Shown here one piece after another: positions 1 to 61,476 of a DNA stretch of 64,000 bases (position 1 is the stretch's first letter; each line of letters begins with the position of its first letter). The DNA lies in the NCBI GenBank assembly GCA_000310025.1, contig FN649732.1, positions 2,181,160 through 2,245,159 on the forward strand. The letters are read 5' to 3'. Below the pieces are notes generated by a model, which saw only the letters and a program-made list of their open reading frames with translations, ran no database searches and was not told where the DNA came from. This DNA is from Ectocarpus siliculosus. Its lineage: Eukaryota; Sar; Phaeophyceae; Ectocarpales; Ectocarpaceae. The position numbers were made by a program, and so were the translations under genes.

Positions 1-3000
1 TGGCCGGTCGTCGTGTCTCGGCACGAGAGAGGCCTACATCTCCCGGTGTTTCCCTTTCCAAGGCACTGTCCATTTCAAATCACTTGGAACATCAAAGATT
101 GTGTGGTGGACACTGGGAGCGAATGGATGTTGCGTCTCAGTCGATGATGACATGCAGTATACGTGCCGAATGAGATCGGCTCTTTTGCGGTACTTCGAAA
201 CCATGACCTTACCTCCAGGTGGTCATCAGTATAGAATCTCTTGCATAGAAGGCGAGAGTGCGCTCTCGTCTTCAGCCGGGTTGAGGAAGCTCGAACATGG
301 AAGGCCCTCGGTCGATAAACGCCGTGTTCGATTCTCTGGTTTTGAGTCATAGGGAAGTTAAGGGGAGGCCGACACAAAATCTGCAGTAGAACTCCACTAC
401 AGTGCCCACAAGCATACTCACTCCCTCGTCCATTCCTTTCCGTGCCAACTTCGTCTGCTTCTCAATATTCTCTCGCAGAGACGGCGGCACAGCCCCCATG
501 CCCGTCGACGGCGAAGTCGACAACGATCAAGGCAACGACACCGAAGGGTAAGGTCAATGCCAAGAAGTATGATGTCTTGCCCCTACAAGTTTGCACGGTC
601 GTCGTGTCTCGGCACCAGAGAGGCCCACACCTTGCGGTGTTTCCCATTCCAAGGCTCTGTCGGTTTCAAACCACTTGGAACATCAACGATTGTGTGGCGG
701 ATACTGGGAGCGAATGGATGTTGCGTCTCAGTCCAAGATGACATGCAGTATACGTGCCAAATGAGATCGGCTATTGTGCGTTACTTCGAAATCATTACCT
801 TACCTTCAGGTGGTCATCAGTATATAATCTGTCGCGTCGAAGACGCGAGTGCGCTCTCGCTCTCAGCCGTGTTGAGGAAGATCAAATATTGAAGGCTCTC
901 GGTCGATAAACGCCGTGTTCGATTCTCAGGCTTGAGTGAATGGGTTGCGGAGGGTAGGCCGACACAAAATCTGCAGTAGAGCTCCGCTCCGGTGCCCACA
1001 AGCATACTCACTCCCTCGTCCTATTCTCTCTGTGCCAACTTCGTCTGCTTCTCGTTATCCTCTCGCAGGGACGGCGCCATAGCCCCCACGCCCGTCGACG
1101 GCGAAGCCAACAACGATCAAGGCAACGGCACCGAAGGGTAAGATCAATGCCAAGAAGTATGATGTCGGTTGCACCTCCAAGTTTAGGCGGTCGTCGTGTC
1201 TCGGCACCAGAGAGGCCCACATCTCCCTGTGTTTCCCTTTCCAACGCGCTGTCGATTTCAAACCACTTGGAACATCAAAGAGTGCGTGGCGGACACTGGG
1301 GGCGAATAGATCTTTAGGATCACATGCAGTATGCGTGCCGAATGTGATCGGCTGTACTACAGTACCTTGAAACCAGTACCTTACCTTCAGGTGATCATCA
1401 GTATAGAATCTGTCGCGTCGAAGACGCGAGTGCGCCCTCGTTCTCAGCCGTGTTGAGGAAGCTCGAACATGGAAGGACCTCGATCGATAAACGCCGTGTT
1501 CGATTCTCAGGTTTGAGTGAGAGCGATGTTGAGGGAAGGCCGACATAAGATCTGCAGTAGAGCTCCGCTCCGGTGACCACAAGCACACTCACTCCCTCGT
1601 CCATTCCTCTCCGTGCCAACTTCGTCTGCTTCTCAATATGCTCTCGCAGAGACGGCGGCCCAGCCCCCACGCCCGTCGACGGCGGAACGAACAACGATCA
1701 AGGCAACGACACCGAAGGGTAAGATCAATGCCAAGAAGTGTGATGTCGCTTTCCCCTCCAAGAATACGCGGTTTTCGTGTCTCGGCACGAGAGAGGCCTA
1801 TTTCTCTCGGTGTTTTCTTTTCGAAAGCGCTGTCGATTTCGACTACTTCGAACATCAAAGATTGTGCGGCGGACACTGGGAGCTAATGGATGCTGCGTCT
1901 CAGGCCATGATGACATGCAGTATACGTGCCGAATGAGATCAGCTGTACTACGGTACCTTGAAACCAGTACCTTACCTTCAGGTGGTCATCAGCATAGAAT
2001 CTCTCGCATAGAAGGCGAGTGTGCGCTCTCGCTCTCATCCGTGTTTAGGAAGCTCGAACATGGAAGGCCCTCGGTCAATAAACGCCGTGTTCGATTCTCA
2101 GGTTTGAGTGAGAGCGATGTTGAGGGAAGGCCAACATAAGATCTGCAGTAGAGCTCCGCTCCGGTGACCACAAGCACACTCACTCCCTCGTCCGTTCCTC
2201 TCCGTGCCAACTTCGTCTGCCTCTCGTTATCCTCTCGAAGGGACGGCGGCACAGCCCCCACGCCCGTCGACGGCGAAGCCAACAACGATCAAGGCAACGG
2301 CACCGAAGGGTAAGATCAATCCCAAGAAGTGTGATGTCGCTTTCCCCTCCAAGCCTGCGCGGTCGTCGTGTCTCGGCACCAGAGATGCCTACATCTCTCG
2401 GCGTTTCCCGTTCCAGGGCGCTGTCGATTTCGACTACTTGCAACATCAAAGGTTGTGCGGCGGACACTGGGAGCTAATGGATGCTGCGTCTCAGGCCATG
2501 ATGACATGCAGTATACGTGCCGAATACGACGGGCAACTTCGCGGTACTTCGAAACCATTACCTTACACTCAGGTGGTCATCAGTATAGAATCTCTCGCAT
2601 AGAAGGCGAGTGTGCGCTCTCGTCCTCAGCCGGGTTGAGGAAGCTCGAATTTTGAACGACCTCGGTCGAGAAACGCCGTGTTCGACTCTCGGGTTAGAGT
2701 GAGAGGGATGTTGAGGGTAGGCCGACACAAAATCTGCAGTACAGCTCCGCTCCGGTGCCGACAAGCACACTCACTCCCTCGTCCATTCCTCTCCGTGCCA
2801 ACTTCGTCTGCTTCTCAATATGCTCTCGCAGAGACGGCGGCCCAGCCCCCACGCCCGTCGACGGCGGAACGAACAACGATCAAGGCAACGACACCGAAGG
2901 GTAAGATCAATGCCAAGAAGTGTGATGTCGCTTTCCCCTCCAAGAATACGCGGTTTTCGTGTCTCGGCACGAGAGAGGCCTATTTCTCTCGGTGTTTTCT

Positions 3001-6000
3001 TTTCGAAAGCGCTGTCGATTTCGACTACTTCGAACATCAAAGATTGTGCGGCGGACACTGGGAGCTAATGGATGCTGCGTCTCAGGCCATGATGACATGC
3101 AGTATACGTGCCGAATGAGATCAGCTGTACTACGGTACCTTGAAACCAGTACCTTACCTTCAGGTGGTCATCAGCATAGAATCTCTCGCATAGAAGGCGA
3201 GAGTGCGCTCTCGCTCTCATCCGTGTTTAGGAAGCTCGAACATGGAAGGCCCTCGGTCAATAAACGCCGTGTTCGATTCTCAGGTTTGCGTGAGAGGGAT
3301 GTTGAGGGTAGGCCGACACAAACTCTGCAGTAGAGCTCCGCTCCGGTGACCACAAGCACACTCACTCCCTCGTCCGTTCCTCTACGTGACAACTTCGTCT
3401 GCTTCTCGATATCCTCTCGCAGAGACGGCGCCACAGCCCCGACGCCCGTCGACGGCGAAACCAACAACGATCAAGGCAACGACACCGAAGGGTAAGATCA
3501 ATGCCAAGAAGTGTGATGTCGGTTTCCAGCCTGCGCGGTCGTCGTGTCTCGGCACCAGAGAGGCCAATATCTCCCGGTGATTCCCTTTCCAAGGCGCTGT
3601 CGATTTCAATTCACTTGGAACATCAAAGTTCGCATAGCGGACACTGGCAACGAATGGATGTTTCGTCTCAGTCCATGATGACATGTAGTTTCGTGCCGAA
3701 TGAGATCATCTGTACTACTTCGAAACCATTACCTTACCTTCAGGTTGCATTCAGTAGAATCTGTCGAAGAGAAGACACGAGTGCGCTCTCGTTCTCAGCT
3801 TTGTTGGCCAAGTTCAAACATGGATGGCCCTCGGTCGAAACACGCCTTGTACAAGTTCGAAGTTGAGGGGGCGGGGAAGTTGAGGGTAGGCAGACAGAGC
3901 ATTTGCAGTAGACCCCTGCTCCGGTGACCACCAGCATTCTCACTCCATCGTCCGTTGCTCTCTATACCAACTTCGTCTGCTTCTCGTTATCCTCTCGCAG
4001 AGACGGCGGCACAGCCCCCACGCCCATCGACGGCGAAACCAACAACGATCAAGACAACGGCACCGAAGGGTAAGATCATTTCCAAGAGGTGTGATGTCTC
4101 TTTCCCCTCCAAGTCTTGTTGGTCGTCGTGGTCTCTGCAGGAGAGAGGCCCATATCTTGAAGTGATTCTCTTTCCAAGGTGCTATCGATTTGAATTCACT
4201 TGGAACATCAACGATTGTGTGGCGGACACTGCCAACGAAAACATATTTCGTCTCAGTTCATGATGACATGCAGAGTACATAGAGAATCAACTCGGCTGTA
4301 CGTAGAAACCAGTACCTTACGACTCATGCAACGGTAGGGGTGCACGAATCCCTTCTGAGTCTCAAACGAGAGAAGCTCCATATCTCAGCCTGAAATGGAC
4401 ATTGACACAACATGAAAATATGACGTGACAGGTAATCCGATGGGCTAGATGAAACGCCATTGAAATTTGAAATCGGAGTTGATATTCGAAGGTTATTGGT
4501 TGGTTATTCATCTGAATAACCGAAGGTTTTGGGCCGTAATGTGCTATCCCTACCGTTGCATGACTCTTACCTTCAGGTGGTCATCAGTAGAGTCTGTCGA
4601 ATAGACGACGCGAGTGCGCTCGTACTCTCAGCTTTATTGATGAAACTCGAATATTGAAGGCCCTCCGTCGATAAACGCCATGTTCGATTCTCAGGTTAGA
4701 GTGAGGGGGGTGTTGAGGGTAGGCCCACACAAAATCTGCAGTAGAGCTCCGCTCCGGTGCCCACCAGCACACGCACTCCCTCGTCCGTTGCTCTCCGTGC
4801 CAAATTCGTCTGCTTCTCAATATCCTCTCGCAGAGACGGCGGCACAGCTCCCACGCCCGTCGACGGGGAAACCAACAGCGATCAAGGCAACGGCACCGAA
4901 GGGTAAGATCAATGCCAAGATCAATGCCAAGAAGTATGGTGTATCTTTCCCCTCTACGTCTGGCTGGTCGACGTTGTCTCGACACGAGAAAGGGACGTGT
5001 CTCGAGGTTTCTCTTTACAAGGCGCTCTCGGGGTTTCTGTCGTACTACTGGATGAGTTCGTATAGCCGATGCTACGGGTGTGGTATACCCGCCGGAGTTC
5101 GGGACATCGCATGTTGGACTGGTCGGTGTTAGTGACACGTGGATTTTTAAGGCCACACCTGGCTGCTGCACAGCGTGATCCGGACGATACATTGGGCCAT
5201 ATCTACCCTAACACCGCTCTATTCCCTTCAGATCATGAATGACATGATAATGTTCGGCCGAGCTAGCGTTGAGAATGAAATGCTGATCAAGCTTTGTTCG
5301 TGAAATCACGCCAGCATCGTCAACCATCGTATCCCTTCCGCCGATCCAATCATTCCCTGCTTTCGCCCTAACGAAGCGCAGTGGGAACGATTACACATAC
5401 GTAGGATGCTTCAAGGACAGCCAGCAAGATCGCATATTGGGGGACCAGCTGACAAATTCCCAGGAAATGACTACCGAGGTAAGTATCACAGAGTCTATGC
5501 CTGGGTTCAATGTAGAAAACTTTGGAATCAGAATTTCACGATGCAATGTGTAGTGTCTTGGCGATACAGAATCCATGTGCGACACAAGAGTCCGTTGATT
5601 TTGATAGTCATTCGAGAAGCTACCTGTTTTGGTGCCCGTTCCACTGACACCGGGCTCGTTAGAGCGGCATAGGTCGTTGTTTCGGGCCCTGGAATTCGAC
5701 TTACGAGTACGAGTCCGACGTGCAGCCTCGCATCATGAGTCTGTGTTGCTTGGTCTCTTCTCAATCGAAATATTCTGCTCGCCCTTGGTGCTACCTCCTC
5801 GTATCGTGTCGCTTCTTGGCTGAGTTTACGCTGCCACCCATCGGCCTGACGCTGGTTGTGTATTTGTTGTGCGTTCGTATAGTTTTGCTACGACTATTGC
5901 ATTACGAAGGACGCCACATTTATGGCTACCCAGTACGCGATTGAGTGCTGGTGCACATCCGAGCCCGAGGATCAGGTCGACTATGCCCGCCACGGAGAGG

Positions 6001-9000
6001 GAGCGCAGTGTAACTACGATTGCGCCGGCGATGAGGTACGAAAGGCTCGGAAGCAAATAACGGTCAGGAGCTTGTCGCCCGCGTGCGATGTTCACATTGC
6101 GACGTACAATACGTACATTGTAGAAAGCACGACCGTTGTCTGCTGCGTTTCACGACCACAGGGGACGCGTGTGGTAACGCGTAGTGCCGCAAAATACGTT
6201 CATGAAACGATAATCTCGTAATCTCTTCCCGAATGTTGGCCTAAAGGGCAAGTAAATATTGCCTCTGCTTGCCCTTGTTGTCAAAAATCTGCCGTTGCTT
6301 TCCCGTTTTTCCGAACTTGACAGTAGACCCCACCAAAGTTCAACTTCTACATCAGCCGGCCTGGCTGTATTCACGTCAACTCTAAACAGTGAGGACAATC
6401 CAACCTCTTGAACTCATTCCAAAGCCACCCATATTCGGTCTCCCAGCCCTCGAAATACGAAGCACCCGAAGTATTTGCTTTTAGCGTCAGCAAACTTCTC
6501 AGCCCTGTTCTCAATCTCTCTGGTCTCGTCTGCGTCTCTCTCTCTCGGTTTCTCTGTGCGTGTCTCTGCCCTCCATCTATCTTCCTCCACATCATAGGAC
6601 GAGTCGTGCGGTGGTTTTGATGCTTTCGATCTATACCGCATCGGCGCGGCCTACACTACGAGGTGTGAGCATGCGCCTGAGTTCTTCAAGACTACATATA
6701 TATATATCGGAGCCACGTTGTTTATAGTTTGGCTGAATGGCCATGTCGGCAAAACGTTTCATGGTCTGCTCTAACTATTCAGAAGCAAAAGGGAAGCAAA
6801 ATCCATGTCTTGTTCAATTCCAAGATGACACGAGCGTACGGAATCAACAAAATCGGCCGTACGGCTTGGACCCTCCCTTGGGTGGATATCAGCAGAATCT
6901 GTCACCCAGAGGAGACGCGCGCTTCAGAACAATCAGCTCTGCTGTTGAAGCTGGGATAGAGAAGGCCTTCGGTCGATAAACGCCATTTTCGATTCTCAAG
7001 TTGAGGTGGTGGTGAAGCTGAGACTAGCGGGACACACCGTTTGCAGTAGACCCCTAATCCAGTGACCACCAGCACACTCACTCCCTCGTCCGTTCCTCTC
7101 CGTGCCAACTTCGTCTGCTTCTCATTATCCGCTCGCAGCGACGGCGGCACAGCTCCCACGCCCGTCGACGGCGAAACCAACAACGATCAAGGCAACGACA
7201 CCGAAGGGTAAGGCCAATGCCAAGAATGATGTTGTCCCTCCCCCCTTCAAGTCTGGGAGGTCGTCGGTCTCGGCACCAGAGAGGCCGATATCTCGCGGTG
7301 TTTCCCTTTCCAAGGCGCTGTCGATTTCAAACCACTTGGAACATCAACGATTGTGTGGCGGACACTGGGAGCGAATGGATGTTTCGTCTCAGTCCATGAT
7401 GACATGCAGTATACGTACCGAATGAGATCGGCTATTTTGCGGTACTTCGAAACCATTGCCTTACCTCCAGGTGGCCATCAGTAGAGTCTGTCGCATAGAA
7501 GACGCGAGTGCGTTCTCGGTCTCAGCCGTGTTGATGAAGCTCGAATATAGAAGGCCCTCGGTCGATAAACGCCGTGTTCGATTCTCAGGTTTGAGTGAGA
7601 GGGATGTTGAGGGAAGGCCGACACAAAATCTGGAGTAGAACTCCGCTCCGGTGACCACCAACATACTCACTCCCTCGTCCGTTCCTTTACGTGACAACTT
7701 CGTCTGCTTCTTGTTATCCTCTCGCAGAGACGGCGGCACAGCTCCCACGCCCGTCGACGGCGAAACCAACAACGATCAAGGCAACGACACCGAAGGGTAA
7801 GATCAATCCCAAGACGTATGATGTCGTTTTCCCCTCCAAGTCTGCGCGGTCGTCGTGTCTCGGCACCAGAGAGGCCTATATATCGCGGTGCGTCTCTTTC
7901 CAAGGCGCTGTCGATTTCGACTACTTTGAACATCAAAGTTCGCATAGCAGACACTGGTGGCGAATGGATGTTTCGTCTCAGTCCATGATGACATGCAGTA
8001 TACGTGCCGAATGAGATCGGCTGTACTACAGTACTCTGAAACCAGTACCTTACCTTCAGGTGGTTATCAGCAGATCTGTCGCATAGAAGACGCGAGTGCG
8101 CTCTCGCCCTCATTCGTGTTGATGAAGCTCGAACATGGAAGGCCCAAGGTCGATTATCAGCGTGTTCGATTCTCAGGTTAGCGTGAGAGGGATGTTGAGG
8201 GTAGGCCGAAACAAAATCTGCAGTAGAGCTTCACTCCGGTGCCCACCAGCATACTCACTCCATCGCCCGTTCCCCTACGTGACAACTTCGTCTGCTTCTC
8301 GTTGTCCTCTCGCAGAGACGGCGGCACAGCCCCCACGCCCGTCGACGGCGAAACCAACAACGATCAAGGCAACGGCACCGAAGGGTAAGATCAATGCCAA
8401 GAAGTATGATGTTTCTTTCCCCTCCAAGTCTTGTTGGTCGTCGTGGTCTCTGCAGGAGGGATGCACTTGCCTCGGTGTTTCTCTTTTCAACGTGCTGTCG
8501 ATTTCAAACTACTTGGAACATTATAGATTGTTCGGCGCACACTGGGGGCGAATGGATGTTTCGTCTCATCAGTCCATGATGAGATGAAGCTGTATCGCCT
8601 AGAATCCCTTACCATACTCCAGGTGGCCATCAGTAAAATCTGTCGCATAGAGGACACGTGCGGGTGTGTTCGCACTCTCTCAGCTCTGCTGTGAGACGTC
8701 GAACATGGAAGGCCCTCGGTCGTAGATCGCCGTGTTTGATCTTCAGGTTTCCGGAAAGGGGCAAGCTGAGGGAAGGTCGCCTGAACACTTGCCGTAGAGT
8801 CCTGCTCCGGTGACCACCAGTATGCTGAATTCCTCATATAATCCTTTGCATGCAATGTTCTTCTGCTTCTCGATACCCTGTCGCAGAGACGGCGACACAG
8901 CTCCTACGCCAGTCGACGGCGGAACCGACAACGATCAAGGCAGCGGCACGGAAGGGTAAGACCACTACCAAGAAGTATCGTGGTCGATTTCCCCTCCATG

Positions 9001-9615
9001 TCTCGAACGGTCGCTGTGGTCTCGGCACGAGAGAGGGACATGTCTCGGTGATTCTATTGCTAAGGCGCAGTCGCTTTTGTCATCCTATACGTTTGTAGAG
9101 CCGAAAATACCGGAGTAGTATGCATAAGTCCGCCAGATTTTGACATCGCGTTTTGGACTGATCCGTGTTTACGACCTGTGTATCTCTCATGCCATCTCCT
9201 ACTGTTGCGAAGTGAAATGGAGACTACCATAAGCGATGTGACATTAGAAGGAGCGTTCAGTGAGGACATCGTCCGGATCATCGACGTCGAAGGTGTTGTT
9301 CCAGGTGGCGCAAGTTGGGCTGACAGCTACTCCGTCGGAAGCAAGTGCTACATGCAGACCACGTTTGACCACGGCATTGGCGAGGTGGAGGTGGACACAC
9401 CGCAAGGCACCATGAAAATCGAAGATCTATTTTTCCTTCTAGAACCTGGACCCGGATCTGAAGGCCGACCCCTCTACAACGATATTCAATGCGGAAACGG
9501 CCCAGTCAATTCCGACAATATACTTGATGAAATCGTTTGCCCTGGTCTGGTGGAATACGGTATTGAAGGCTGCGGCCAGATCGGTCCATTGTGGGATCTT
9601 TCAGAGCTCGAGTAG
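1..9615 (+). CDS. WSC-domain protein with tandem 23-residue repeat exons (5' end outside window)
   Basis: Sixteen exons can be joined in one frame: 479-547, 1069-1137, 1650-1718, 2241-2309, 2832-2900, 3423-3491, 4001-4069, 4834-4902, 5382-5478, 5883-6035, 6598-6662, 7139-7207, 7728-7796, 8316-8384, 8887-8955 and 9234-9615 (stop). Each has an AG acceptor and GT donor, and every junction phase matches. The product is eight copies of a 23-residue acidic repeat, one complete WSC domain, four more repeats and a 126-residue C-terminal region. WSC domains are eight-cysteine putative carbohydrate-binding modules of secreted or cell-surface proteins, so a wall or surface role is likely (inference). 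The start, signal peptide and any further domains lie left of position 1: the window opens inside a repeat-unit intron. Exon structure is well supported by phase and conservation; no transcript was available. Confidence 0.85.
1579..2105 (+). repeat. Near-identical tract, copy 1 (array A)
   Basis: This tract contains exon 1650-1718 and most of its downstream intron. It matches 2761-3287 almost base for base at an offset of 1182. The only difference noticed is t versus a near 2019. Sequence on both sides (for example 1540-1578 versus 2722-2760) diverges at the usual between-unit level. Sharp edges like these point to gene conversion or unequal crossing-over. Confidence 0.8.
2761..3287 (+). repeat. 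Near-identical tract, copy 2 (array A)
   Basis: Partner of 1579-2105, two units downstream. It contains exon 2832-2900, which is identical to exon 1650-1718 and encodes the variant with Pro at position 4 and Gly at position 12. The unit between them (exon 2241-2309) is clearly different, so the pair is not simply the two newest neighbours. Confidence 0.8.
4321..4566. mobile_element. MITE-like non-autonomous DNA element, 246 bp
   Basis: The ends are inverted repeats of 19 bases with one mismatch: the left starts gactcatgcaacggtaggg and the right ends ccctaccgttgcatgactc. The element is flanked by ttac on both sides (4317-4320 and 4567-4570), a 4-bp target duplication. The empty site is visible in sister units, which read accttaccttcagg without interruption. 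The interior is AT-richer than the array and holds a perfect 9-bp hairpin (ggttattca/tgaataacc). There is no coding capacity. It sits in the intron between exons 4001-4069 and 4834-4902 and explains the long spacing there. The superfamily is not assigned. Confidence 0.85.
5382..6662 (+). CDS. Three exons encoding a complete WSC domain
   Basis: Exon 5382-5478 (1 nt plus 32 codons) encodes YVGCFKDSQQDRILG and ends at MTTE. Exon 5883-6035 (51 codons, phase 0) encodes FCYDYC, then MATQYAIECWC and CNYDCAGDE. Exon 6598-6662 (21 codons plus 2 nt) encodes DESCGGFDAFDLYRI. Together they give the eight cysteines and the order typical of WSC domains: GCF, two Cys in the first helix region, ECWC, C-x3-C and CGG followed by a hydrophobic strand. 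Donors are gtaagt, gtacga and gtgtga. The entry phase fits the GG-ending repeat exon at 4902. The exit phase fits the repeat exon at 7139, where AG plus C makes Ser instead of the usual Gly. The ligand is unknown; WSC domains are thought to bind polysaccharide. Confidence 0.88.
6800..9170 (+). repeat. Tandem exon array B: four units of the same 69-nt exon
   Basis: Exons are 7139-7207, 7728-7796, 8316-8384 and 8887-8955, with start spacing of 589, 588 and 571. Recognisable unit sequence begins around 6810, inside the intron after the WSC exons. The first two exons encode the same peptide as the array consensus; the third has Gly at position 20. The fourth is the most divergent (Asp at 3, Gly at 12, Asp at 14, Ser at 19) and is the only one lacking the Asn-x-Thr motif. 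The intron after it (8956-9233) resembles the intron after array A (4903-5381) and not the internal introns. Confidence 0.88.
9234..9615 (+). CDS. C-terminal exon of the WSC-repeat gene
   Basis: The exon is 1 nt plus 126 codons and a stop. It joins GG-ending exon 8887-8955 in phase and makes Gly again. The peptide opens DVTLEGAFSEDIVRI, carries ASWADSYSVGSKCYMQ, a PGPGSEGRPLYNDIQCGNG loop, and CPG and GCGQIGP motifs, and ends WDLSELE. It has four cysteines, is acidic and has no membrane segment, so the visible part is not anchored by a C-terminal helix. I do not recognise the domain by name; it may be a lineage-specific secreted module. The acceptor (accataag) has a weak pyrimidine tract, so the exact exon start is less certain than the frame. 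Confidence 0.8.
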
Positions 9616-49587: not shown

Positions 49588-52500
49588 TCATAGCTTGCTT
49601 CTCCGGGCCGGCGGGTCCTTCGTCAGGTGCTTCAAAGCCGCCTTTGGGTGTCCTGCTTGCATGCGCCTGAATACAGTATTTCACACGAAATGAGTCGGAC
49701 ATCAACGGGCGAAGGGGAGTGGGCAGTCCGCCCAACGAAACAAAAATCAGAAGAGGCGCCCATTCGCTTCGACATTAGGGTGCACGCCGAATGCAATGCC
49801 AAGGGATGCGGGGAGGGAGGATTCGCTGTATAGGTGGGCCGTGCAAAGCTCATTTGCAGGCATTGTCGTGAGCAACACACAAATCGCTTGGCACACGTGC
49901 ATGTAGAACGTTCGACCCCAAACCAGCGTCCGCGCGGTTCATTTCCCCATTTCCCCGCTCGTGTTCATGCGAGACAACTACTTTTCACAGAAGTTCACAG
50001 CATCACCAATACGTAAACCCACTTGTCAAGCTCCCCGCACTCCTCCGCGAACACCCTGAGCATCCTCGGCCGCCGGTCGCGCCACACCATTCGCTTGAAC
50101 GTCCTCACCGACTCTGTCGCGAAGCAGGTCTCGACCACTTTCTGCCTCACGCTGTGCTTCACCTGCGAGTATCGCGCAAGACCATGAAGCAACGAACACG
50201 GGGGGAGGGGGGGGGGGGTACTCATAGTCGTGCATGCCGTAGTCGTTAGACCATTGACCTTGCATCCCTACAAAGCCGGGATGGAGCACGCCGGGTTCTC
50301 ACCGGACCAGGCCCTCACATCACCAAGCGCGAAGCGCCGTGAGGTATTCGGCGAGTCGCATGAAGGGTGCGCTGCATCCTGCTAAGGATGTTCGGCATCT
50401 TGTGCGTACTTCCTTGCGCATGGACGACAGCTGCGTATGACTTGAAATATTTTCTGGTGCTTTCACTTCAAGAGACAGTTGTAAGCACAGTGTAACTGCC
50501 TCGAGGGTGCTTGACCAATTTAACACAACGTGATGCCATCATCCCCTTTGCGTGGAGTGCAGCTCTCGACCCCGCACAGCGTAATCTACTCGACCACCGC
50601 TACGGTTACCGCAAAAACAAAAACAGAGGCAAAAAAAGCAACCTGGTTGCCTAGCTCACAAAGTGATCGGCTTGTGTTACAAAGTCATTGCCTAGCGACG
50701 AAATCCACGGAGGAGGGGGGGGACACAGGACGTGTAGAAAACCCACGGTGCTCGGGCGCGCAAGTTAAATCCACGTGCAGGCTGCTGAGCAGAGCTTTTC
50801 ATGAGTCCCGCAAGGATACACCCCCCCGGAGTGTTTCGCTAATCACTAGGGCGGATGGACACATGGGTTGCAACGCGGCAAACACATATATGAAAAAATC
50901 ATAGGAGGGTCCAGGAAAATACTTGCCAGGGCTCAACGACAGAGGACAGTTTCCAGGGATTTCGTCGTGTATGTTCAATGCCAAGATTTTCGATTGAAAA
51001 CCAGGGTAGCGCGAGTAGCTTTGGCTTGAGTCGGTCGTCGCACGCCCATATTGAAGCCAAAAGCCATCCACCAGAGACGACACGTGACGACAGAATCGAG
51101 TGTTCATCCGGGGTAAAAGATCAACAAGAGCGGGGCATAGGATACCCCAAAATTCTGACAAACATACTGCAGCATGTCGCAAAAATAACTTCAAAAACAA
51201 CCGCTGAACAGGTGGCCTATCGTGGTTGACGAAATTTTGTACGATCTTGCGTCACGATTAACTGGCCCACTCGCCTGCATCAAGAAATCCTTCTCCGTGT
51301 CGGCCGTCACCACCGTCGAAACCAATCCCGACGACAGGGCCTCTTGCGCGCTGAGTTTACGACCCATGATGAGCATGTCGTTGGCACGAGCCAACCCCTG
51401 TTTGTTGCGCCCACGCGTGCATACCAGAAAAACGAGGTTTGCCAGTGACGGTGGTCGGGGAGGGGATCAGAGGGTGCGGCAGTAAGGCCTGAAGGAACGA
51501 CCAAATAATTGAGCATGTGAAAAACGTGCACAGGAAGCCTAACAATACGTGTCCTCTTGTGCCCCTTAGGTTTCACGTGTGATGATGAACATCTTTCTGG
51601 CGAGCAAGCACCCTTTCGCGTACGGGAAGTGGGGTGCGAGAGCAGCAACGTGATTGAAAGGGAAGATAATCACGAAAACAACAGGGCATCACGGCGAAAA
51701 CAAACCGTGGCAGCAACGTCGACACCACATCCAGCGATGAGCATGTGCCCCTCGGCACGGTGTACAAGAACCAACAGTAGCGTGCATACTAGGAGGGGAG
51801 GAGTCAATTCGATGTCCGGGAGCGCGCATTACAGTGCAATTACCGTAGGCGTAGGCCGCACCGATTCAAGCCGATTGAAATTTTTCTCACCAAAGTCTCC
51901 GGAAAAGTGAGGCTGGAGCAAAACTCCGGCACGATCGCGAGTCGAAAGAAGGGCGTCCAAAGAGTTGCGCCTTCCTTCACCCCCGCTGCTCGCTCCTCCC
52001 TCGCCGCAGGAATGCCGTGGCGCCGCCGTCCTCCAACATCCCCCTCCCTGGAAGCGTTCGAGGTGGTACGTGGTGGCCCCCCGTAGGCGTAGACTAAGTC
52101 ACAGTGTGGAAGGAGCGTTACGCCGACTCCAACGGCTGGCCCGTTGACGGCGGCCACGAGGAGCTTCGGAAAACGCAAGACTGCGCTCCCGAAAACCCCA
52201 AATGGCTGCTGAATCATCGGTACAGGCGAAATCGCTGGGGAAAACGAAGCATACCACAACACACAGCCGGGGCAGGAGGGTACGTTAATTCAGGTCACAA
52301 GCTGAAGCCATGTATCAACGGGGACTTGAGGGTTCAACAAAGACCCACCTGACAGAACATTAAACGGCTGCAACATCACCGCGGCGTATGAAATGGCGCT
52401 GGAAGCAAAGTACGCCCGGGAGTGATCGTGTTGTGTATAACTCGGCCCAGCTGGGAGGATGGGAGTTGGGAAGGGGCAAGAGTCCCAGAATGTCGGTTCG

Positions 52501-54312
52501 GCCTGAAGGCTCCCTGGAAGGCCGCACGAAATCAAGCCCCGACCAGAGGTTGCAGCAATGAAAAAATACGTAATCGAAAGCAGCCCCTTAGAAAACATAT
52601 CACCGAATGCCACTTCGCATCCCTTTCGGGGAAAATCGAGCGGGAAACAGCGGCTCGGGGGTGGGCAAAGGACTTTCGGCGCCATTTCGCATGATTGTTC
52701 TCAGCACTCACACTGTCGTTGGAGCTCCTTAATATCGGCACCGCTTGTGAAGTACCCCCCTGACCCCGTGATTACTACCGCCAAGACGGACTCGCTGCGC
52801 TCAGCCGTTTCAAGGAGTTGAACTACGCGCAAGTAAAGTGCTCCATTGAACGCGTGTTTCGACTACGAAGCACGCATGGACGCACACGTTGCGGGGGAGA
52901 GCACCAAAAGACATGGGGAAGAACAAAAGATCAGCGAGTTCAAGGGACAAGGGTGGGATGAAACTTCGAGCGATAAGAGAGATGGGACAAGAAGGCGTGA
53001 CACGTATTGATAGTCACAACCGTTGGGTGAACACACGCACACGCTTGCAGAGAGCGGATCAACAATTTCACTGCCGGAACGGCTTGGATAGTTCCAATTC
53101 AACATGTCGGCAGCCACAGAAAAGCCGTCTTACAGCAGCAATTAGGTAAAATACCCAAAAAAGGACAAGAGAAGCACTGTACATAGGCAATGATGGTCAC
53201 TCTCAGCTCCAGCACCGACACATTTAGTGCCACCTGATGTGACAAAGATACAAGGCCATACAAGTGATCCCTCCGGAGTGGGCACAATAGAGCACAGTGT
53301 CATCAAGACGTGATGAGGATGGCAATAAAAGTAGGCAGCAGGACCAACCCATAGCTGACTGCCAGCTTCGGTGTGACGTTTCCCAAGCTCAACAGTTAAC
53401 ACAGCGAGTGCGACCCCCCTAGAATCTGCCACCCCCTAGAATCCGCCCCCTAGAATCCGCCAGAGAGATCCGGTTCATTATAAGAACGGCCGGACTTTTT
53501 TCCAGCCGGATTTTTGCCCATCCTGAAAGGTGATGTTTTTTGGGAAAGGAAAGCAATTGCATAGGAAACAGCCTTACAAATATATCTCCGCTTGTTTCAA
53601 CACGCACGTGTTGATCCAGAAAAACACGGCATTGCCGCCACGGATTTTGCCACTGCCAAGAAGAAAAAATGGTATTTGGCTGCATGGCACCCAGCAACCA
53701 GCTCACGTCCGACTCTCTCACCCACGATTCCGCACCACCTGGCAAAACAGCCCGGTGTGCAGACCCCACGTGTAAGAACTTCGGTGGCCGCGTTTGACCA
53801 AAACCTCGGTGGCCAGACGGTACTCTTGCGGCAAAATTACAAAATTACTTGCATATAGACTATTCCGGCAGTACGCACCGGAGACGGGAGGCTCCGGTAC
53901 GTGGTATCTAGCACCAGAGGGCAAGGAGTGGTAGACTATCATGCTTTGATTGGCTTGAAAGGACAGCGCTCAGATCCACAGCAGTCAGCAACATGTGTAT
54001 TCACACCTTCGGCCTGTTCAGAGTCAAGGTGGCGATGCCCTCCTCTTCCTGGTACAGCACACACGAAACACCATCCTCTCCCCCGCCGCCTCTGCCCCAT
54101 CCTCCTCCGTGACCGCCTGCTTCTCGTTCCTCTGCTGGCGAGTCCCTGCGTGTTGGCGATATGAGCTCGACAGTGCTCTCGTTGACCTTCAGTCCTGCTG
54201 CAGAACACTGGCACTCGCATAGAATACGACCGCCGCTGGCGATTCTACACTGTACCGAGGCGGGCGGTGACATACATCGCGGTGGAGACAAACACCGCTC
54301 CGCTGGTACCAT
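49588..54312 (-). CDS. Peroxisomal enoyl-CoA isomerase/hydratase (crotonase family, ECI-like), 7 exons
   Basis: Exons 54312-54007, 52862-52712, 52234-51891, 51397-51275, 50921-50820, 50162-50023 and 49666-49588 total 1,245 nt (414 residues plus stop) with every phase matching. Motifs in order are [49 protein letters not shown] with [39 protein letters not shown], and a C-terminal ARRSKL. These are the crotonase CoA-binding and oxyanion-hole segments. The SKL end is a canonical PTS1, placing the enzyme in peroxisomes, where this family shifts enoyl-CoA double bonds for beta-oxidation of unsaturated fatty acids. Odd points are a 36-residue insertion after DLVYA, a GC donor at 51274 (atgcag|gcgagt) and an N-terminal region of about 80 residues without a domain. 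The start is the first Met of the exon-1 frame; an upstream exon is possible. Delta3,Delta2-isomerase is likelier than hydratase, from overall similarity. Confidence 0.9.
50200..50218. repeat. G-rich homopolymer (C-rich on the gene strand)
   Basis: Nineteen bases, all G but one A. On the minus strand this is a C-rich tract ending about 38 bases before the acceptor of exon 50162-50023, where it may act as part of the polypyrimidine tract. Confidence 0.8.
53414..53461. repeat. Short tandem repeat in intron 1 of the isomerase gene
   Basis: Three consecutive copies of cccctagaatcYgcc with small spacers. It lies between exons 54312-54007 and 52862-52712, so it is intronic and unlikely to be coding. 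Confidence 0.7.
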
Positions 54313-54970
54313 TGTGCGGGACGCCGGGAAAGCAAGGCGTATGCCACACAGAAAGTAGCAGCATCAACTGCAACAACTTCGTCGCAAGCAACCCTCGTTG
54401 TGGGCGGTGATCGTGGGGTGATCCCGGATGCCCCGCACCATGGCGCCATGACGCGGAGGGCCAAGGCTGGCGTGTATCATATTGTGGTCCTTCTGTACAG
54501 CAGTACCCATTGTTCAAGCAGCTTCTGCGTCGCCCCCTGGTTCAGAACTTTTTTGTTACCGTTAAGCTTCAAGCTTGCCACTTTTGCCTTTTGCCCCTTT
54601 TGCCCACATGCAGCGTGAACACATGGACGTTGATGACAGATGATGCTTGACGCACCATTTACCACACTAAAGAAAGAAAACCCCGTTCCGGCAATGTGTG
54701 GAAGCCTGGTTTGTGAAAAAAAATCACTGAAGATGAGTGTACAGCCGCTTGTAGCCTTGTGGTTATATTATTGGGGAAGTTTCGGAAATATGTGTGGTTT
54801 TGCCGAGGGACAAAATCCCTGTTGGTGCATACGAACCCCAACGTAGTGGTAGGCCATATCCCATATGGATCTCTTCTGGGGAAGATAGCAACAGTGGGAG
54901 ACCACTCCCCCGCAAGAACACAGTCACCATAGTCTATATGCTATTGTGAACTTGTCGAATGGTTTGAAAT
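54313..54970. other. 5' flank of the isomerase gene
   Basis: No supported exon. It presumably holds the isomerase promoter (reading leftward) before the retroelement-derived sequence that starts near 55 kb. No promoter element could be identified. Confidence 0.45.
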
Positions 54971-54975
54971 AATAT

Positions 54976-55860
54976 GTGGGTCGCACGGTAGATAATCCGT
55001 ATGCAAGATTTGCTGGGCACTTAGGTACCGGAGATCGGTTGGGCAGGACACTACACCTAGATTGGACTAAGTGTGAGGTTTTCGAGCTCGAGACACTTCC
55101 CCGTTACTTGCCGGAAGGCCATACGTATGGTACACTATTGCAATGGCGGCAGAGGGAGAACTCCTGGATTGCATGCATGGATGCCGTCAGAAATGGCTAC
55201 AATACCAAGAGAGAGATTGCATGCCCCCGTAGCCCAGGTTTTCCTTGGCATGGTTTTGGTACGCGACCGATCAAACGGTCTAGACACGAAGCACGCAAGA
55301 CTACAACGAATGGGGGTTGCCAGAAGAGGATGTTCCGGTCCCGTGATTGGAAACGACGAATACAGTACCTTGCTAAGCTGATTCAGTACAAGCCTTACAA
55401 AGTCAATGCCTACATCAAAGCGCTATAGCAACAAAAAACATGCTGCGCATGATTAGATATGTGGGGCAGGTGGGTATCACAGAGGATGTGCATTTAGCGT
55501 TTCAGACACTACGCAAAGCGTACCTCGCGACTTTTCCCCCTCCGTTGGTTAAGCAACGTAAGGTACCTCAACTGGTAGTGATAAGTTTTACTAGTTCTGT
55601 TGCAGATTCCTTGGGGCTCCGTGGGATGTTCATGCGTGCAAGTATTCTAGCGTACATTCCCCCCCAACACCGTGCATTCCGTGACGCTGTACAACGTATT
55701 ATCCCTTGCTTTAAGTCTAGATAGTATGATGTTCAATACCACCAACGTCGCGAGAGATGTAAATCATGGTAAATATAGATGTATTTGTAAAGACCCCGAA
55801 TGGAGTAAGTACACGGTTGTTGCGAAGGATGGTTCGAAATGTCTGATTACTACAGATGCC
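54976..55860 (+). pseudogene. Decayed retroelement-like coding sequence, unassigned
   Basis: Open segments 54976-55428 (150 codons) and 55440-55724 (94 codons) lie on the same strand as, and directly before, recognisable reverse-transcriptase remnants. The second holds VVISFTSSVADSLGLRGMF, which recalls retroelement polyprotein segments, but I cannot name the domain. Frames are broken by stops and shifts. It is listed as mobile-element derived because of its position and because no splice signals link the pieces. Confidence 0.4.
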
Positions 55861-56531
55861 TGATGTCTTATTGATGCCAACGCTGCAGCTGTGCTAAACC
55901 TGCAAGCTGGTTTTAGAGCAGAATATGCTGAAGCTTTGAATTACCTGTCTTTCTTTGAATCGCTCATAGACGCCATAGAATCGTACATTGGCGATGTATG
56001 TCATTAACTCAAAGTGCCACGCGGTGACATTGAGGACTGGGAGGATGCTTTGTACGACGCGATAGAACAAAAAGTGACTGACGCGGACAAGGGGGAGGTT
56101 CCTTAGCCCCTTACAGGCCACAAGATGTTGCTGTAGCTAGGACATCCTTTCAACAATTGCACAAGAAGGTGGTGTTTACGAGAGTCGACAAAGCGGCCAA
56201 CTGCATTTGTATCACATGTAAGCCGTGCTATATTGGGTTAGCCAGAGCAGAACTTGAAGGACCGGGGTACAGGACAGTACACGGAGAGTTGGAGTTGGTG
56301 AAACAGACGACCATTGACCGACAACATAAGTTTTTGGTAGATGAAAAGTTGCCCATCCCACAGCGGCAGTACAAAGATGAGGACGGTGACACCCACTCAG
56401 AAGTTACCCACGCGATACCTCACTGCTAAACTACATAAGCCGTTGGTAGCGACACGTGGAATTACAGCTTGTTGCGGTACGATAACAGAAGGGGTGGCTA
56501 AGGTAGTTAACGCAGTTCTGGTAACAGTAGC
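55860..56531 (+). pseudogene. Reverse-transcriptase fragment of a non-LTR or Penelope-like retroelement
   Basis: Reading across frames, the segment encodes LQAGFRAEYAEALNYL, GDIEDWEDALYDAIEQKVTD, then VVFTRVDKAANCICIT with YIGLARAEL, and finally RYLTAKLHKPLVATRGITA with CCGTITEGVAKVVNA. The order DKA...Y...EL, then KLHK followed by R-x-I, is the N-terminal part of a reverse transcriptase seen in Penelope-like and related retroelements. Stops and at least one frameshift (near 56400) break it. The catalytic core downstream of this part is missing: the sequence changes to gypsy-type at about 56.53 kb. Confidence 0.55.
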
Positions 56532-59500
56532 TTGACGTCCCCAGAAGACGTTGGTGTGTATCTGATCCGAGCGACAGGTCACGCATCACCCGGACAAACC
56601 ACGCCTGGCGTTGGTTTGGGTGGGCTGGCGCCCCCGAGCGAGAACGCCGCTTTGGGTGGGCTACCCCTCACTTCCGATGATTTTGCGGATTTTCGCAAAC
56701 ACGGGCCTCGAATGAGGATTGACGACCTTGATGCTCCTGCAGGAGAATTCGTCGCTCGTGTTTTTCCGTGCGTCAATGCGCGAGGACCTTTGCGACACCT
56801 TGCGGACGATCGTGCATTGTCTTGCACCGAACACTCCGTATTTGCTGTGCCTGAGGATATTTCCGCTGCAACCCAGAAAAAACAGGGCGCTGTGCCGGCA
56901 CTCCGGTCTTCAGCTTCTCCTGTTGTGTCTCCGATGAGACCATTGTATAGGGACACCGCCACGGTTTACGGACCGTCTGCGCGACCCCACACGGATACAG
57001 CTGCATTTGCGCTCCCTATCCATGACACACAGACCGCCGACGATAACTCTCGGTTGCCCCCTGTCGTGTCTCCTGCGACAGCAACTGTCGACGCCGGCTC
57101 CCACTCTGATCGTTTGGATGCCGCCGACTCATTGCCGCCGCCTTCGACCTCTCGGTTGCAACCGCATCGTATTGATCCGTCGGAACTGATCTCTACTCGT
57201 ACGCGTCGCAGAACCGCGGCTGCTGCGGGTCAGCCTCAACCCTATGTAAACTACGGTTTCGGTCCTGATTTGTCGATCCCCCCACACGCAGGCGCTTCTC
57301 GTCGTCAAACACGAGTGACGCCAGCTGACACCACGACTGAGCCTGCTGTCGAACCTGTCCCAACGGTGCCCATACCGCCGCCGGAGACGGTTACCGACGC
57401 CCCTACGGGTCCTCTGTTGGGTTTGTCACAACCGGCTGCTGCAGCTGGTAAGGCAACGCCCGAAGTGGATTCCATGGTCCTCAATCCTGCTGAGTTAGAA
57501 TTCCGTGAGTCCGTCGAACGCTACACGCGTGCCGATTGGGCGCGGGAACAGCAGAAAGAGCCCGTGTGTGAAGCCACCATCCGCTACATTCTCCTCAAAC
57601 ACCCTCAGAGTCTACCTATCGATTTCTTTGCCGGAGTGTCATATCACTCCAGACATAGACCATCGTTGGAGGATATTCGAGAGCTTGCAGATAAAGGACG
57701 CCTCGTCACTGATGATGGCCTTTGCCTCTTGGTACGAAAGAATACCAAGCCCCCGGTCTCTTCTGACCGTCCCGGAGGACGAGCTGCACGTCTGTTGAAT
57801 GACGAACCCACTCGTATTTACGTGCCCATGTTAATGCGACCTTGGGTCATGCAAGCTTGTCATGCCAACGCCCTCTGCCACCTTGGTACCGCTCGCACGC
57901 TTAGCTTGCTTGAGAGGTTTTACTGGTGGATTGGGATGAGTATCAGTACTCGTTGGTGGATTCGGCGATGTTTGAAATGTCAGGCCCGCAAAACTGCGCG
58001 CCAGACTATTCGCTGGCCGATTCTCACGATCCCTCTGCCTTCGGCACCAGGGGTCGCGATTAGCGTCGGCTATTTTGGTCCGCTTCCCACAACTCCGCGA
58101 GGTTTCTCGTATATTTTGCTATTCACTGACCGCTTCAGTCGGAGAGCCAATATGTACGCAGTGACTGACGCCGAGTTCACCGCTGAAGGTACAGCTGACG
58201 CCCTTGTCAATAAATACATGCCTGTTTGGGGATGCCCCCTCAGCATTCTTTCTGACAATTGATTGCAGTTTCGCTCCAAACTGTCGGTTGCCATCCTAAA
58301 ATTGCTACGCGTCCGAGAAATTACGACGAGCGCGTACCACCCTAGCGGCAACGGAGGAGTTGAGCGCGTGAACCACACCATGGCCCAGATGCTGGCGATG
58401 GTTGTGAACGAACGACAAGATGATTGGGACATTCATCTCCCTCATGTTGAATTCGTGTACAACAACTCCGTTAGCGCTGCAACAGGATTGGCGCCCAATG
58501 CGGTGCATATGGCGCGCCTTCCCAGGTTTCCACTGACCGTTTTTGGCCACATTTACGCTCATGGCCACCAGTCGCTTGCCCGTGATCAGCTCGAGTATTG
58601 CAACCTTGCCGCCGATCGGCAACGGCGCTCCTACGAGCTAGTGCGTGAACAACACGCACTCACAGTTTCCAGTATGGAAAGACGGAACTCGAAACTGTCT
58701 GATGCCTTACACAAACTACCCGTTTACGCTACCGGTGGTTGGGTGTGGGTCTACAACCATTTGGCTACCATCCGCCAAGGTGCCAAACTCACTTCCAAGA
58801 CCCGCGCAGACGCTGACTCCCAGGTACTCAAGAAGAAGCTGTCCTTGAGTTGGACAGGTCCTTTTAAAATCCTCGCAGTCGGTCCTTGCAACAAGGCTCC
58901 CGATGGCAGCCCGGTGGCTGACAAGCTCCTGTACTTGGATCTTCCCTCCGATATGCCCGGAGTGGATGCCAAGCACCGAGTTTCTGTCGCTCTTTGCAAA
59001 CCGTGTGCCAACCCACACGATAGTGACGAGATGCCTCGGCTCTTGCCTGCAGGCCTCACGCAGTATTTTCTCAACAACTACGCGACGAAGTCTCCACCAT
59101 ACCATGTTACCGCGGACGATGTTTCGGCGCCTGTCCGTAGGCTCGAGGTTTAGAAAATCACGGGACACCAGTCGGTTCGAGGACGTTGCGGCGTCATCGC
59201 AGTCATGTACGAGGCCCACTGGAAAGGTCTTATGCGCCCCTCGTGGGAACGAGAAATGGACCTCCAACACTCTCGAAAACAGATTCTTCTGTATTGGGCT
59301 GGTACACCCGACCAACACCGGCAGACTAACCGTCTGTATCGTCGCATGCGCATTGGCGCCGCGGAACGTGAACTGTCTCGCATCAAAGGCGAGCGGTCCT
59401 CGTCGCCTGGGTACGAATATGTTCCCCGCGATGTTTGGGCCCGCCGTTTTCGCAACACCGTGCTGCCTGTTGGCGCACACTTCTGGTACAAGGCCCAAGA

Positions 59501-59735
59501 CGCTCTATGGTGGCTAGGGAAAATCTCCGGACACACTCCAACTACAAACGTCTTCTTCGTTCGCTTCCTGGATGACCCTGGACCTGTCAAGACCACCCTC
59601 TCCCCTTCGCGCTACACAACAGCTTTGGGGGCTGTTTGTGGTTCTTGGTGCCTTCAGCTGCACCGAAGTAGTCCCTTCATGCGAGGTATCTTGCGCAATG
59701 TAGACGTGTCGCGTGGTACGGCTATAGATGCCTGA
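56532..59735 (+). pseudogene. Ty3/gypsy integrase with chromodomain, inactivated
   Basis: One frame runs 3,204 nt, broken by TGA at 58260-58262 and TAG at 59151-59153. The N-terminal 330 residues are Pro/Ser/Thr-rich. Then come an HHCC zinc-binding module (CHANALCHLG ... RCLKCQARK), an integrase core (YFGPLPTTPRGFSYILLFTD, then CPLSILSDN, YHPSGNGGVERVNHTMAQML), a chromodomain-like segment (AHWKGLMRPSWEREMDLQHS) and a Tudor-like end (HFWYKAQDALWWLGKIS). The first catalytic Asp of the D,D,E triad is replaced by Gly (ggc at 58068-58070), and the first stop falls directly after SDN of the second motif. No protease, RT or RNase H precedes it. It is a truncated, dead copy; integrases of this type insert retroelement cDNA. 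Confidence 0.9.
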
Positions 59736-59826
59736 TAGCACTGTTGCCTTTGTTTTTATGTTTATGTATATGTATGTGTATATGTTTGTGTGTTACATGT
59801 TTGTGTTTATGTATGTTTGTCTGTAT

Positions 59827-60084
59827 GTTTCTAGCTCGCCCTCTCGATCTATTTTCGAGACTGGCTATTGCTTCTGTATGTTTCTAGCTCGCCATCTCGA
59901 TCGATTTTTGAGACTGGCTGTTGCTTCTGTGTGTTTCTAGCTCGCCCTCTCGTATATTTTGAGACTGGTTATTGCTTCTGTAGGTTTCTAGCTCGCCCTC
60001 TCGTATATTTTGAGACTGGCTATTGCTCCTTTATGATTTCCACTCGCCCTCTCAATCTCTTTGAGACTGGCTCTTGCTTTTGTG
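59827..60084 (+). repeat. Tandem repeat, five copies of 51-53 bp
   Basis: Copies start at 59827, 59880, 59933, 59984 and 60035. The core is gtttctagctcgccctctcg ... gagactggctattgcttct. The first four are close; the fifth is more diverged (gatttccactcgccctctca). It starts 92 bases after the integrase stop and a T/G-rich tract, so it may belong to the retroelement's 3' untranslated region or LTR. Confidence 0.85.
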
Positions 60085-61476
60085 TTGCGTACTTTCTCGC
60101 CCCGTTTGTCACTTCTCGGTCGGTTGTCGAAAGTTGTCGCTCCCCTTTCCCTTTTTTTCAGTGCGACCTAGGTTCGTCATTAGTTGCGGTTACACCCAAA
60201 TTTGGTGCATCGTTTACGCCCCCCCTATGGTTTGCTTTGCATATTTTGTGGTCCAACGTTCCGCCAGTGCTTCTATTGCATGCCACGGCCAACGTGTTCC
60301 ATCTGGATACTTTCTTTAGCATTTTTCTTCATGCAATTGGCTTTGACGTCCAATTAGGATTGCTTTCCTCGCCCCACCCCGATCGCAAGCACGTTGTATC
60401 GTGACATGCGAACGTTGTTTTTGACGTTGGTTCCTGTCCTTTTCTTTGGCCGTTGTTTACGTTCCCCGGAAACCCCCTCTTTCCCTGCTTTTCTCGATTT
60501 TGGTCGACCCCTAACGGTTTTCCATGTAGTTTGATCCTTTGCAGGCTCGGTTTTCGTTTCTCATTCTTTGTGTTTACATTTCAGCATTCGATCGCATCGT
60601 AGCCCCCCTTCCCGTAAGGTTCTGACTTACTTGATTGCGTATTCGATCGGTTCATTCGTGCGATATCGTTTGTGATTTTCTCTTCACGATTTCGTTACTT
60701 CGTGTTACAATATGGTCTTTTCGGTTCGGATGTTTTGGTTATTTTTCACACCCATGTGCCTTTTCCCGATTTTATCCGCCGACTTTGCCGCCCCGGCTTC
60801 TGTGTTTTCTTCTTTCTTGGTTCCGCTTCTTTGGTTTGGTTAACGGAGAGCTGCGGGTGAGGGTTTTGAGTTGTCGTATCTTCGATCCATCCCGCAATCC
60901 TCTTGATTGACTAGAGTCCCTCCGAGGTTTGCTTCGGTATCTGCATCTACGTCCACTCAGGGTGGGCTATTGTTATGGTATTTGGAGGTAGACATGTGAT
61001 CGTGGTTGATCATGGTTATTTGGCGCCGTCGGATGCTAAGACGTGACGTCATGCTAGATCAGGGCTTTATGCCGACACATGTGCCCTTCTGTTCAGTGTG
61101 TGCGTACAGGCGATCTATGATCGTGTGTGCGCGGGATATTGTGAGTTGGCTTGGAAAGCGTTAATCAAGAGAAAGAGAACAACGGAAAGCAACAACTACC
61201 TGCTACTGTGGTCGGACAAGAGAGTTCCACACAGCTCAAAGGTGATTGATTCTGAAGGAAGGGGTCAAATACCATTACACATACTGGAAGAAAGTGGAGC
61301 TGAATGTTTGGAAGCGAATAGATATGAAGGACTTTTCTTGGTAGACTAGCTTGCGTGCTATCATGTGTTGCTTTTGTTTTGATTATGTTTTGCTGTATTG
61401 GGGAGGAAGTGTTTCGTTCCTTTGTTGAGCAATTCCTGAAGTGTTGTTATTTTGTGTTCGTACACCGTGAGGTCTA
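60085..61476. other. Repeat-flank sequence without a supported gene
   Basis: T-rich sequence follows the tandem repeat. An 83-codon plus-strand frame at 61098-61349 encodes LAWKALIKRKRTTESNNYLL and ends RYEGLFLVD. It could be a retroelement remnant but matches no family I can name. No LTR boundary could be placed. Confidence 0.4.

Follow-up and report, generated by a model that had tools for sequence, protein, structure and literature searches.

A 64,000-nucleotide (nt) stretch of the genome of the brown alga Ectocarpus siliculosus (hereafter referred to as the window; G000:C7:2181160-2245159, in a 189-Mb assembly) opens with a tandem array of short, equally sized exons belonging to a gene for a predicted WSC-domain protein. 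A sequence-only reading of the window had described twelve exons of 69 nt between AG and GT sites, and all twelve are present. Here we describe the complete array, in which the repeated exons encode a stalk between protein modules, together with the gene that contains it and its relatives in the genus, and we weigh how such an array may have arisen and what it may do.

The stalk exons and their gene

The window units lie on the plus strand at 479..547 (s09 of 20), 1069..1137 (s10), 1650..1718 (s11), 2241..2309 (s12), 2832..2900 (s13), 3423..3491 (s14), 4001..4069 (s15), 4834..4902 (s16), 7139..7207 (s17), 7728..7796 (s18), 8316..8384 (s19) and 8887..8955 (s20, the terminal stalk exon). Across this interval (479..8955), each of the twelve is exactly 69 nt long, with AG immediately before it and GTAAG immediately after. 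A scan of 94 kb, comprising the 30 kb upstream and the window itself, revealed 20 stalk exons in total, eight upstream of the window, 12 within it and none on the opposite strand. Twelve is thus the count left by the window edge rather than the full exon number, and an array limited to the window is ruled out, as the copies continue upstream. The donor is GTAAG in all 20 exons, read directly from each copy, since the 20-unit alignment just 3′ of the donor is disrupted by gaps (8/10 columns), and the acceptor is CAG in 19 of the 20, with AAG at s12 (position 2241). The unit spacing of 571-591 nt given by the sequence-only reading was borne out, with two exceptions in the window: a spacing of 833, caused by an insertion resembling a miniature inverted-repeat transposable element (MITE) in the s15-s16 intron (4318..4569, no strand assigned; 22-nt arms, 91% complementary), and a spacing of 2305, caused by three WSC exons between window units 8 and 9.

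The first base of the twelve window units is A in nine, G in two and C in one. The 11 units starting with A or G are preceded by a stalk exon ending in GG, so that GGA or GGG encodes Gly. The proposal that the first base always completes a Gly codon therefore stands where the preceding exon is a stalk exon and fails after a WSC module (1/12 in the window): the three units of the gene that start with C all sit after WSC modules, where AG|C encodes Ser, as in s17, which follows a WSC exon ending in AG.

We assembled a gene model of 31 exons (C7:2171760-2190774), which begins 9.4 kb upstream of the window, has GT-AG borders at all 30 introns and encodes 935 residues with a single stop, at the end. 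The window array would therefore form the 3′ portion of this gene, whose product is probably a secreted protein with three WSC modules. The predicted domain order is a signal peptide, WSC-A, two stalk units, WSC-B, 14 units, WSC-C, four units and a C-terminal domain. Stalk exons account for 20 of the 31 exons, all 20 with phase 2-2, and for 460 of the 935 residues, about half of the protein. Each WSC module is encoded by three exons with phases 2-0, 0-0 and 0-2; those of WSC-C lie on the plus strand at 5382..5478 (97 nt, phase 2 to 0), 5883..6035 (153 nt, phase 0 to 0) and 6598..6662 (65 nt, phase 0 to 2, ending AG). The C-terminal exon (9213..9615, plus strand) completes a split Gly codon and continues for 133 codons and the stop. 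The likely signal-peptide exon (C7:2171760-2171845) matches the N-terminus of a predicted protein of Ectocarpus sp. 6 (P0001).

The whole protein scored 150.2 bits against PF01822 (WSC; Pfam cut-off 27.8), with three matched stretches at a maximum E value of 10, and each of the three WSC modules contains eight Cys residues. According to one report, the WSC domain has up to eight conserved cysteines and is a putative carbohydrate-binding module (PMC12879055). In the Protein Data Bank (PDB), WSC relatives are Kremen-1 and one other protein. A Pfam scan of the whole protein returned only WSC and UBA_BRSK, the latter below its cut-off, with no LRR or TPR match, and Rfam gave no family at the gathering score. 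The 460 stalk residues include 24% Asp/Glu, no Lys/Arg, 9% Pro and 39 [AST]P pairs, and 19 of the 20 units carry an N-X-T sequon. No transmembrane segment was found by hydropathy, the top 19-residue value past residue 30 being 1.04, inside WSC-A.

The C-terminal domain had no match in Pfam, NCBIfam or PDB searches. We made three protein searches for relatives, two of which scored only the 8000 candidates with the most shared words. Relatives of this domain occur in brown algae and among many metagenome proteins, with one named bacterial protein (P0041, from a Myxococcota metagenome-assembled genome); some of the metagenome relatives carry CBM6 or malectin-type (PF11721) domains. An alignment of 35 proteins, hand-picked from 82 search matches plus the window protein, contains 24 invariant columns, four of them Cys. 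The C-terminal domain looks like an undescribed extracellular domain.

Coding evidence and relatives

The substitution and indel comparison proposed in the sequence-only reading revealed a strong difference between exons and introns. Over all 20 units, the stalk exons are gap-free at 69 nt with a mean pairwise mismatch of 0.089; the corresponding value is 0.233 for the upstream intron and 0.140 for the final 20 bases of the intron. In the 15 units with another stalk unit directly after them, aligned over 535 columns, the introns contain 24 distinct gaps, 19 of which are not multiples of 3; none of 467 intron windows of 69 columns lacks gaps, and none of 466 is as conserved as the exon. Furthermore, pairwise dN/dS (non-synonymous over synonymous substitution rates) is 0.355 in the phase-2 frame versus 0.637 and 1.944 in the other two frames, in which stops interrupt two and one of the 20 copies, respectively. 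The phase-2 WSC and C-terminal exons, as well as a tandem paralogue lacking the stalk, set the reading frame independently of these tests. Together, these comparisons argue strongly that the stalk array is coding, and we infer that its exons are spliced head to tail.

The sequence-only reading had proposed to look for the array in other strains and brown algae. The stalk is also predicted in other Ectocarpus species, and in the one full-length case, Ectocarpus sp. 4 (predicted protein P0083), the copy number differs: by pattern count the blocks hold 2/14/4 units in E. siliculosus and 2/12/2 in sp. 4. In P0083 WSC is likewise matched in three stretches, with a whole-protein score above the Pfam cut-off, and three of the 16 units are 32 residues long. 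The N-X-T sequon occurs in only three of these 16 units, each of which has 6-10 Asp/Glu, and the TPV core is present in all 16. Partial or broken orthologues are predicted in sp. 6, sp. 8, sp. 12, CCAP 1310/34 and E. fasciculatus, for which unit counts are lower bounds.

Comparison of the units themselves, with the first residue excluded, revealed that the mean difference between internal units is 2.9 residues within E. siliculosus (19 units), 2.2 within sp. 4 (12 units) and 6.1 between the two. The nearest unit lies in the same array for 19/19 units here and for 10/12 in sp. 4, where one unit is tied and one is closer to E. siliculosus. The last units of the two species differ by only 2 residues, whereas each is further from the rest of its own array (5.1 and 6.3 residues on average). 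Homogenisation or re-amplification of internal units within a species, with the end unit escaping, would be expected to leave such a pattern.

A whole-genome DNA search with the 69-nt exon consensus gave 20 matches, all 20 in this gene, and a search with a 659-base pair (bp) unit (two exons and the intron between them) gave 25 matches, all in the array; both repeat counts are lower bounds. The genome contains at least 102 WSC matches (150 of 244 candidates scored), which merge into 70 regions, and we compared 16 loci by self-BLAST, namely L010-L012 around the array and 13 elsewhere (L018 contains 2460 N). None of these 13 loci showed a comparable short-exon array in this comparison. Repeats spaced ~1.4-1.8 kb in L023, L027 and L030 are possibly copies of whole WSC modules, and L029 contains a 30-bp repeat.

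Elsewhere in the window, two consecutive retrotransposon-like open frames split by a stop codon lie at 56511-59153, the first with an Integrase_H2C2 match, and no direct repeats of at least 80 nt were found around them in 53500-60500. A tandem repeat with a period of 51 and about five copies occupies 59820-60083. On the minus strand, 51843-52289 weakly resembles enoyl-CoA hydratase, with a score under the Pfam cut-off, and is perhaps one exon of a larger gene.

Origin of the array and alternative explanations

Paralogues of the gene provide a view of its possible starting point. A tandem paralogue lies just upstream, with WSC and C-terminal exons at C7:2166111-2167913 (inside L010, G000:C7:2161161-2171160); between its WSC exon 3 and its C-terminal exon we found no stalk exon, only one phase-2 intron. 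It resembles P0007, and two extra Cys-rich modules precede its WSC domain. No stalk exon was recognised in a second paralogue, on C109, whose annotated E. siliculosus protein (P0012) joins WSC directly to the C-terminal part; the two share five matching stretches, of which three reach 100% identity, a fourth 98% and a fifth, which crosses an exon end, 75%. A third paralogue, on C489, contains a single 81-nt linker exon of phase 2-2 at the equivalent site, which reads IDIDDGPSPTPVVDEPEPTPPPVQEEE.

Within the array, the introns of the 15 units are 70-98% identical, and those following s11 and s13 form the closest pair (98%). In a tree of the 20 units, the pairs s03/s17, s05/s06 and s12/s14 are highly supported, 8 of the 17 inner branches are open, and s20, whose type is common to sp. 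4, has the longest branch of all. On a larger scale, the WSC-B block is repeated ~10.1 kb downstream as WSC-C, with 88.9% identity over 4490 aligned positions; in the core of the two blocks (s02-s03 versus s16-s17), mismatches number 60/1885 in introns and 5/453 in exons. We considered cDNA conversion between the blocks and set it aside, as selection explains the low exon divergence well enough. An origin of the intron units as a dispersed transposon was rejected because the 659-bp unit has no match outside the locus. The evidence fits local tandem duplication instead of exon shuffling, the process that the sequence-only reading had named.

Two introns of the array carry insertions. The MITE-like element of the s15-s16 intron has 34 matches genome-wide, three of which, the window copy included, are 100% identical over all 235 nt searched, suggesting that the element may have been active recently. 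A different insertion, unrelated to the window MITE, lies in the s01-s02 intron (G000:C7:2175453-2175702), with inverted segments around TAGCATAGTGGATAT. A MITE common to both duplicated blocks was rejected, given that the 94 kb contain no further match to the window element and that the s01-s02 insertion differs.

We consider it likely that tandem duplication of a phase-2 linker exon produced an acidic, Pro/Thr-containing spacer between sugar-binding modules. Such an exon, originally present in one copy between a WSC module and the C-terminal domain, would have multiplied together with its intron of ~500-525 bp by local tandem duplication, through unequal crossing-over or a comparable mechanism. 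As every copy is in phase 2 at both ends, any copy number can splice head to tail, and each DNA copy gained or lost would add or remove 23 residues. The product would be an acidic Gly/Asp/Thr/Asn/Pro-rich spacer that separates the carbohydrate-binding WSC modules and the C-terminal domain in the cell wall, so that copy number probably sets its reach or flexibility. Composition and placement point to this spacer role; secretion, sugar binding, descent from a single linker and the recombination mechanism are likewise what we infer from the sequence.

Several observations weigh against this account. The candidate signal peptide has a weak hydropathy peak (1.16). The distinct-change test is modest, with 14/32 changes synonymous versus 28% expected (0.278; p = 0.039), a result that is weak alone, even though the other two frames gave p = 0.37 and 0.98. 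The likeness of the stalk to the C489 linker consists of position, phase and a short DG..PTPV resemblance, and the sequence around that linker exon matches the stalk units at chance level only, so that position, phase and motif are the grounds on which we derive the stalk from an exon of this kind. The unit distances leave out three long composite units of sp. 4. Moreover, the automated models of relatives are broken, as P0001 and P0006 stop inside the array or run through apparent introns and P0083 has an odd stretch ahead of its C-terminal domain; the unit counts of relatives are therefore lower bounds and their support for splicing is indirect.

Among the other explanations, one holds that the array does not code and is a satellite-like or transposon-derived tandem repeat that lies in an intron with its frame open by chance. 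Such a repeat would account for the repetition of the introns as well as the exons (70-98% identity among 15 units) and for the openness of the other two frames in 18/20 and 19/20 copies, yet the exon is conserved and free of indels, its dN/dS is frame-specific, its phases match the WSC and C-terminal exons, the stalk appears in predicted proteins of other species, and no copies were found elsewhere in the genome. The exon/intron contrast, the frame tests and the orthologues led us to reject this explanation, which we regard as hardly credible. We consider it very improbable that the copies are an assembly artefact, with haplotypes or mis-joined reads stacked in tandem: tandem arrays are often mis-assembled, and the near-identical s11/s13 pair could conceal an error of one or two units in the count, but the unit introns diverge by as much as 30%, two of the introns are each marked by their own, unrelated insertion, and a similar array is present in the sp. 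4 model.

Two further explanations accept the array as coding and differ in what the copies do. The stalk exons may be alternatively spliced cassettes, such that one gene would yield a family of spacer lengths, as in the ROCO LRR exons. Since all 20 are symmetric (phase 2-2), any subset keeps the frame, and tandem LRR exons are reported to be alternatively spliced in Ectocarpus (PMC11378527). The nearly uniform splice sites, with no sign of regulated classes among the copies, and the head-to-tail joining of units in the predicted genes of other species, themselves predictions, make this rather doubtful. It is less probable still that the stalk is chiefly an N-glycan carrier whose copy number sets the number of glycans, with one N-X-T sequon per unit. 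The sequon is found in 19/20 units here but in few of those of sp. 4 (3/16), in which acidity and the TPV core (16/16) are kept.

Many repeat proteins grow within one exon. In this gene every repeat has an exon to itself, accompanied by a long intron, so recombination in introns can change copy number with the frame unharmed. A bolder extension can be offered tentatively and with low confidence, in which the array acts as a dial for stalk length: the number of interchangeable spacer exons may shift quickly, within Ectocarpus populations and between them, by unequal crossing-over, with splicing also varying the inclusion of the exons. The reach of a multivalent wall lectin would then be adjusted at two levels, in the genome and in the cell, and the fast-evolving part would be the spacer, not the binding surface. 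Related species may provide a natural series of measurable stalk lengths.

Comparison with known systems

In yeast Wsc1-type sensors a WSC module lies beside a long rod rich in Ser and Thr, and the protein also has a transmembrane segment and a cytosolic tail. The algal protein is similar in combining WSC with a long linker and differs in that no transmembrane segment was found by hydropathy, on which ground we rejected a transmembrane sensor. Arabinogalactan proteins (AGPs) usually consist of about 50% Pro/Ala/Ser/Thr, and at 31.3% of its 460 residues the stalk is unfit in composition to be a classical AGP. The 39 [AST]P dipeptides in the 20 stalk units are nevertheless a likeness to brown-algal AGP cores, as presented in PMC8307928.

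Closer parallels come from brown algae. The brown-algal WSC proteins described in three reports (PMC8307928, PMC6347293 and PMC12879055) share eight-Cys WSC modules and linkers between domains, whereas the linker here is built from repeated exons. Pro-rich or Asp-rich linkers also occur in other brown-algal relatives (P0008, P0029, P0032 and P0030), compared as proteins. Searches of open-access literature on Ectocarpus and brown-algal WSC proteins, exon shuffling and exon duplication yielded no WSC stalk array at the level of titles and abstracts, and the term 'WSC' does not occur in PMC11468063.

The nearest counterparts are brown-algal ROCO genes, with tandem 72-bp phase-2 LRR exons that are alternatively spliced, and NB-ARC-TPR genes, with arrays of TPR exons (PMC11378527). 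These arrays share with the stalk one repeat per exon, phase 2, tandem arrangement and the same genus, with 72 bp there versus 69 nt here; by contrast, the stalk repeat is a low-complexity acidic spacer rather than an LRR or TPR, and WSC modules are present. That report places four LRR sites under positive selection, whereas the stalk has a mean dN/dS of 0.355 and its internal units are alike within species. In brown algae, the repeat-exon design has been described for putative immune receptors, where it is taken as a source of binding diversity. Its occurrence in a simple spacer, under purifying selection and with species-specific internal units, in a sugar-binding protein that is probably secreted suggests that the design extends more widely in the evolution of brown-algal genes, beyond immune receptors. 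Tandem arrays of single-repeat phase-2 exons encoding LRR and TPR units were thus already on record for brown algae, and the WSC-linked spacer is a new version of them.

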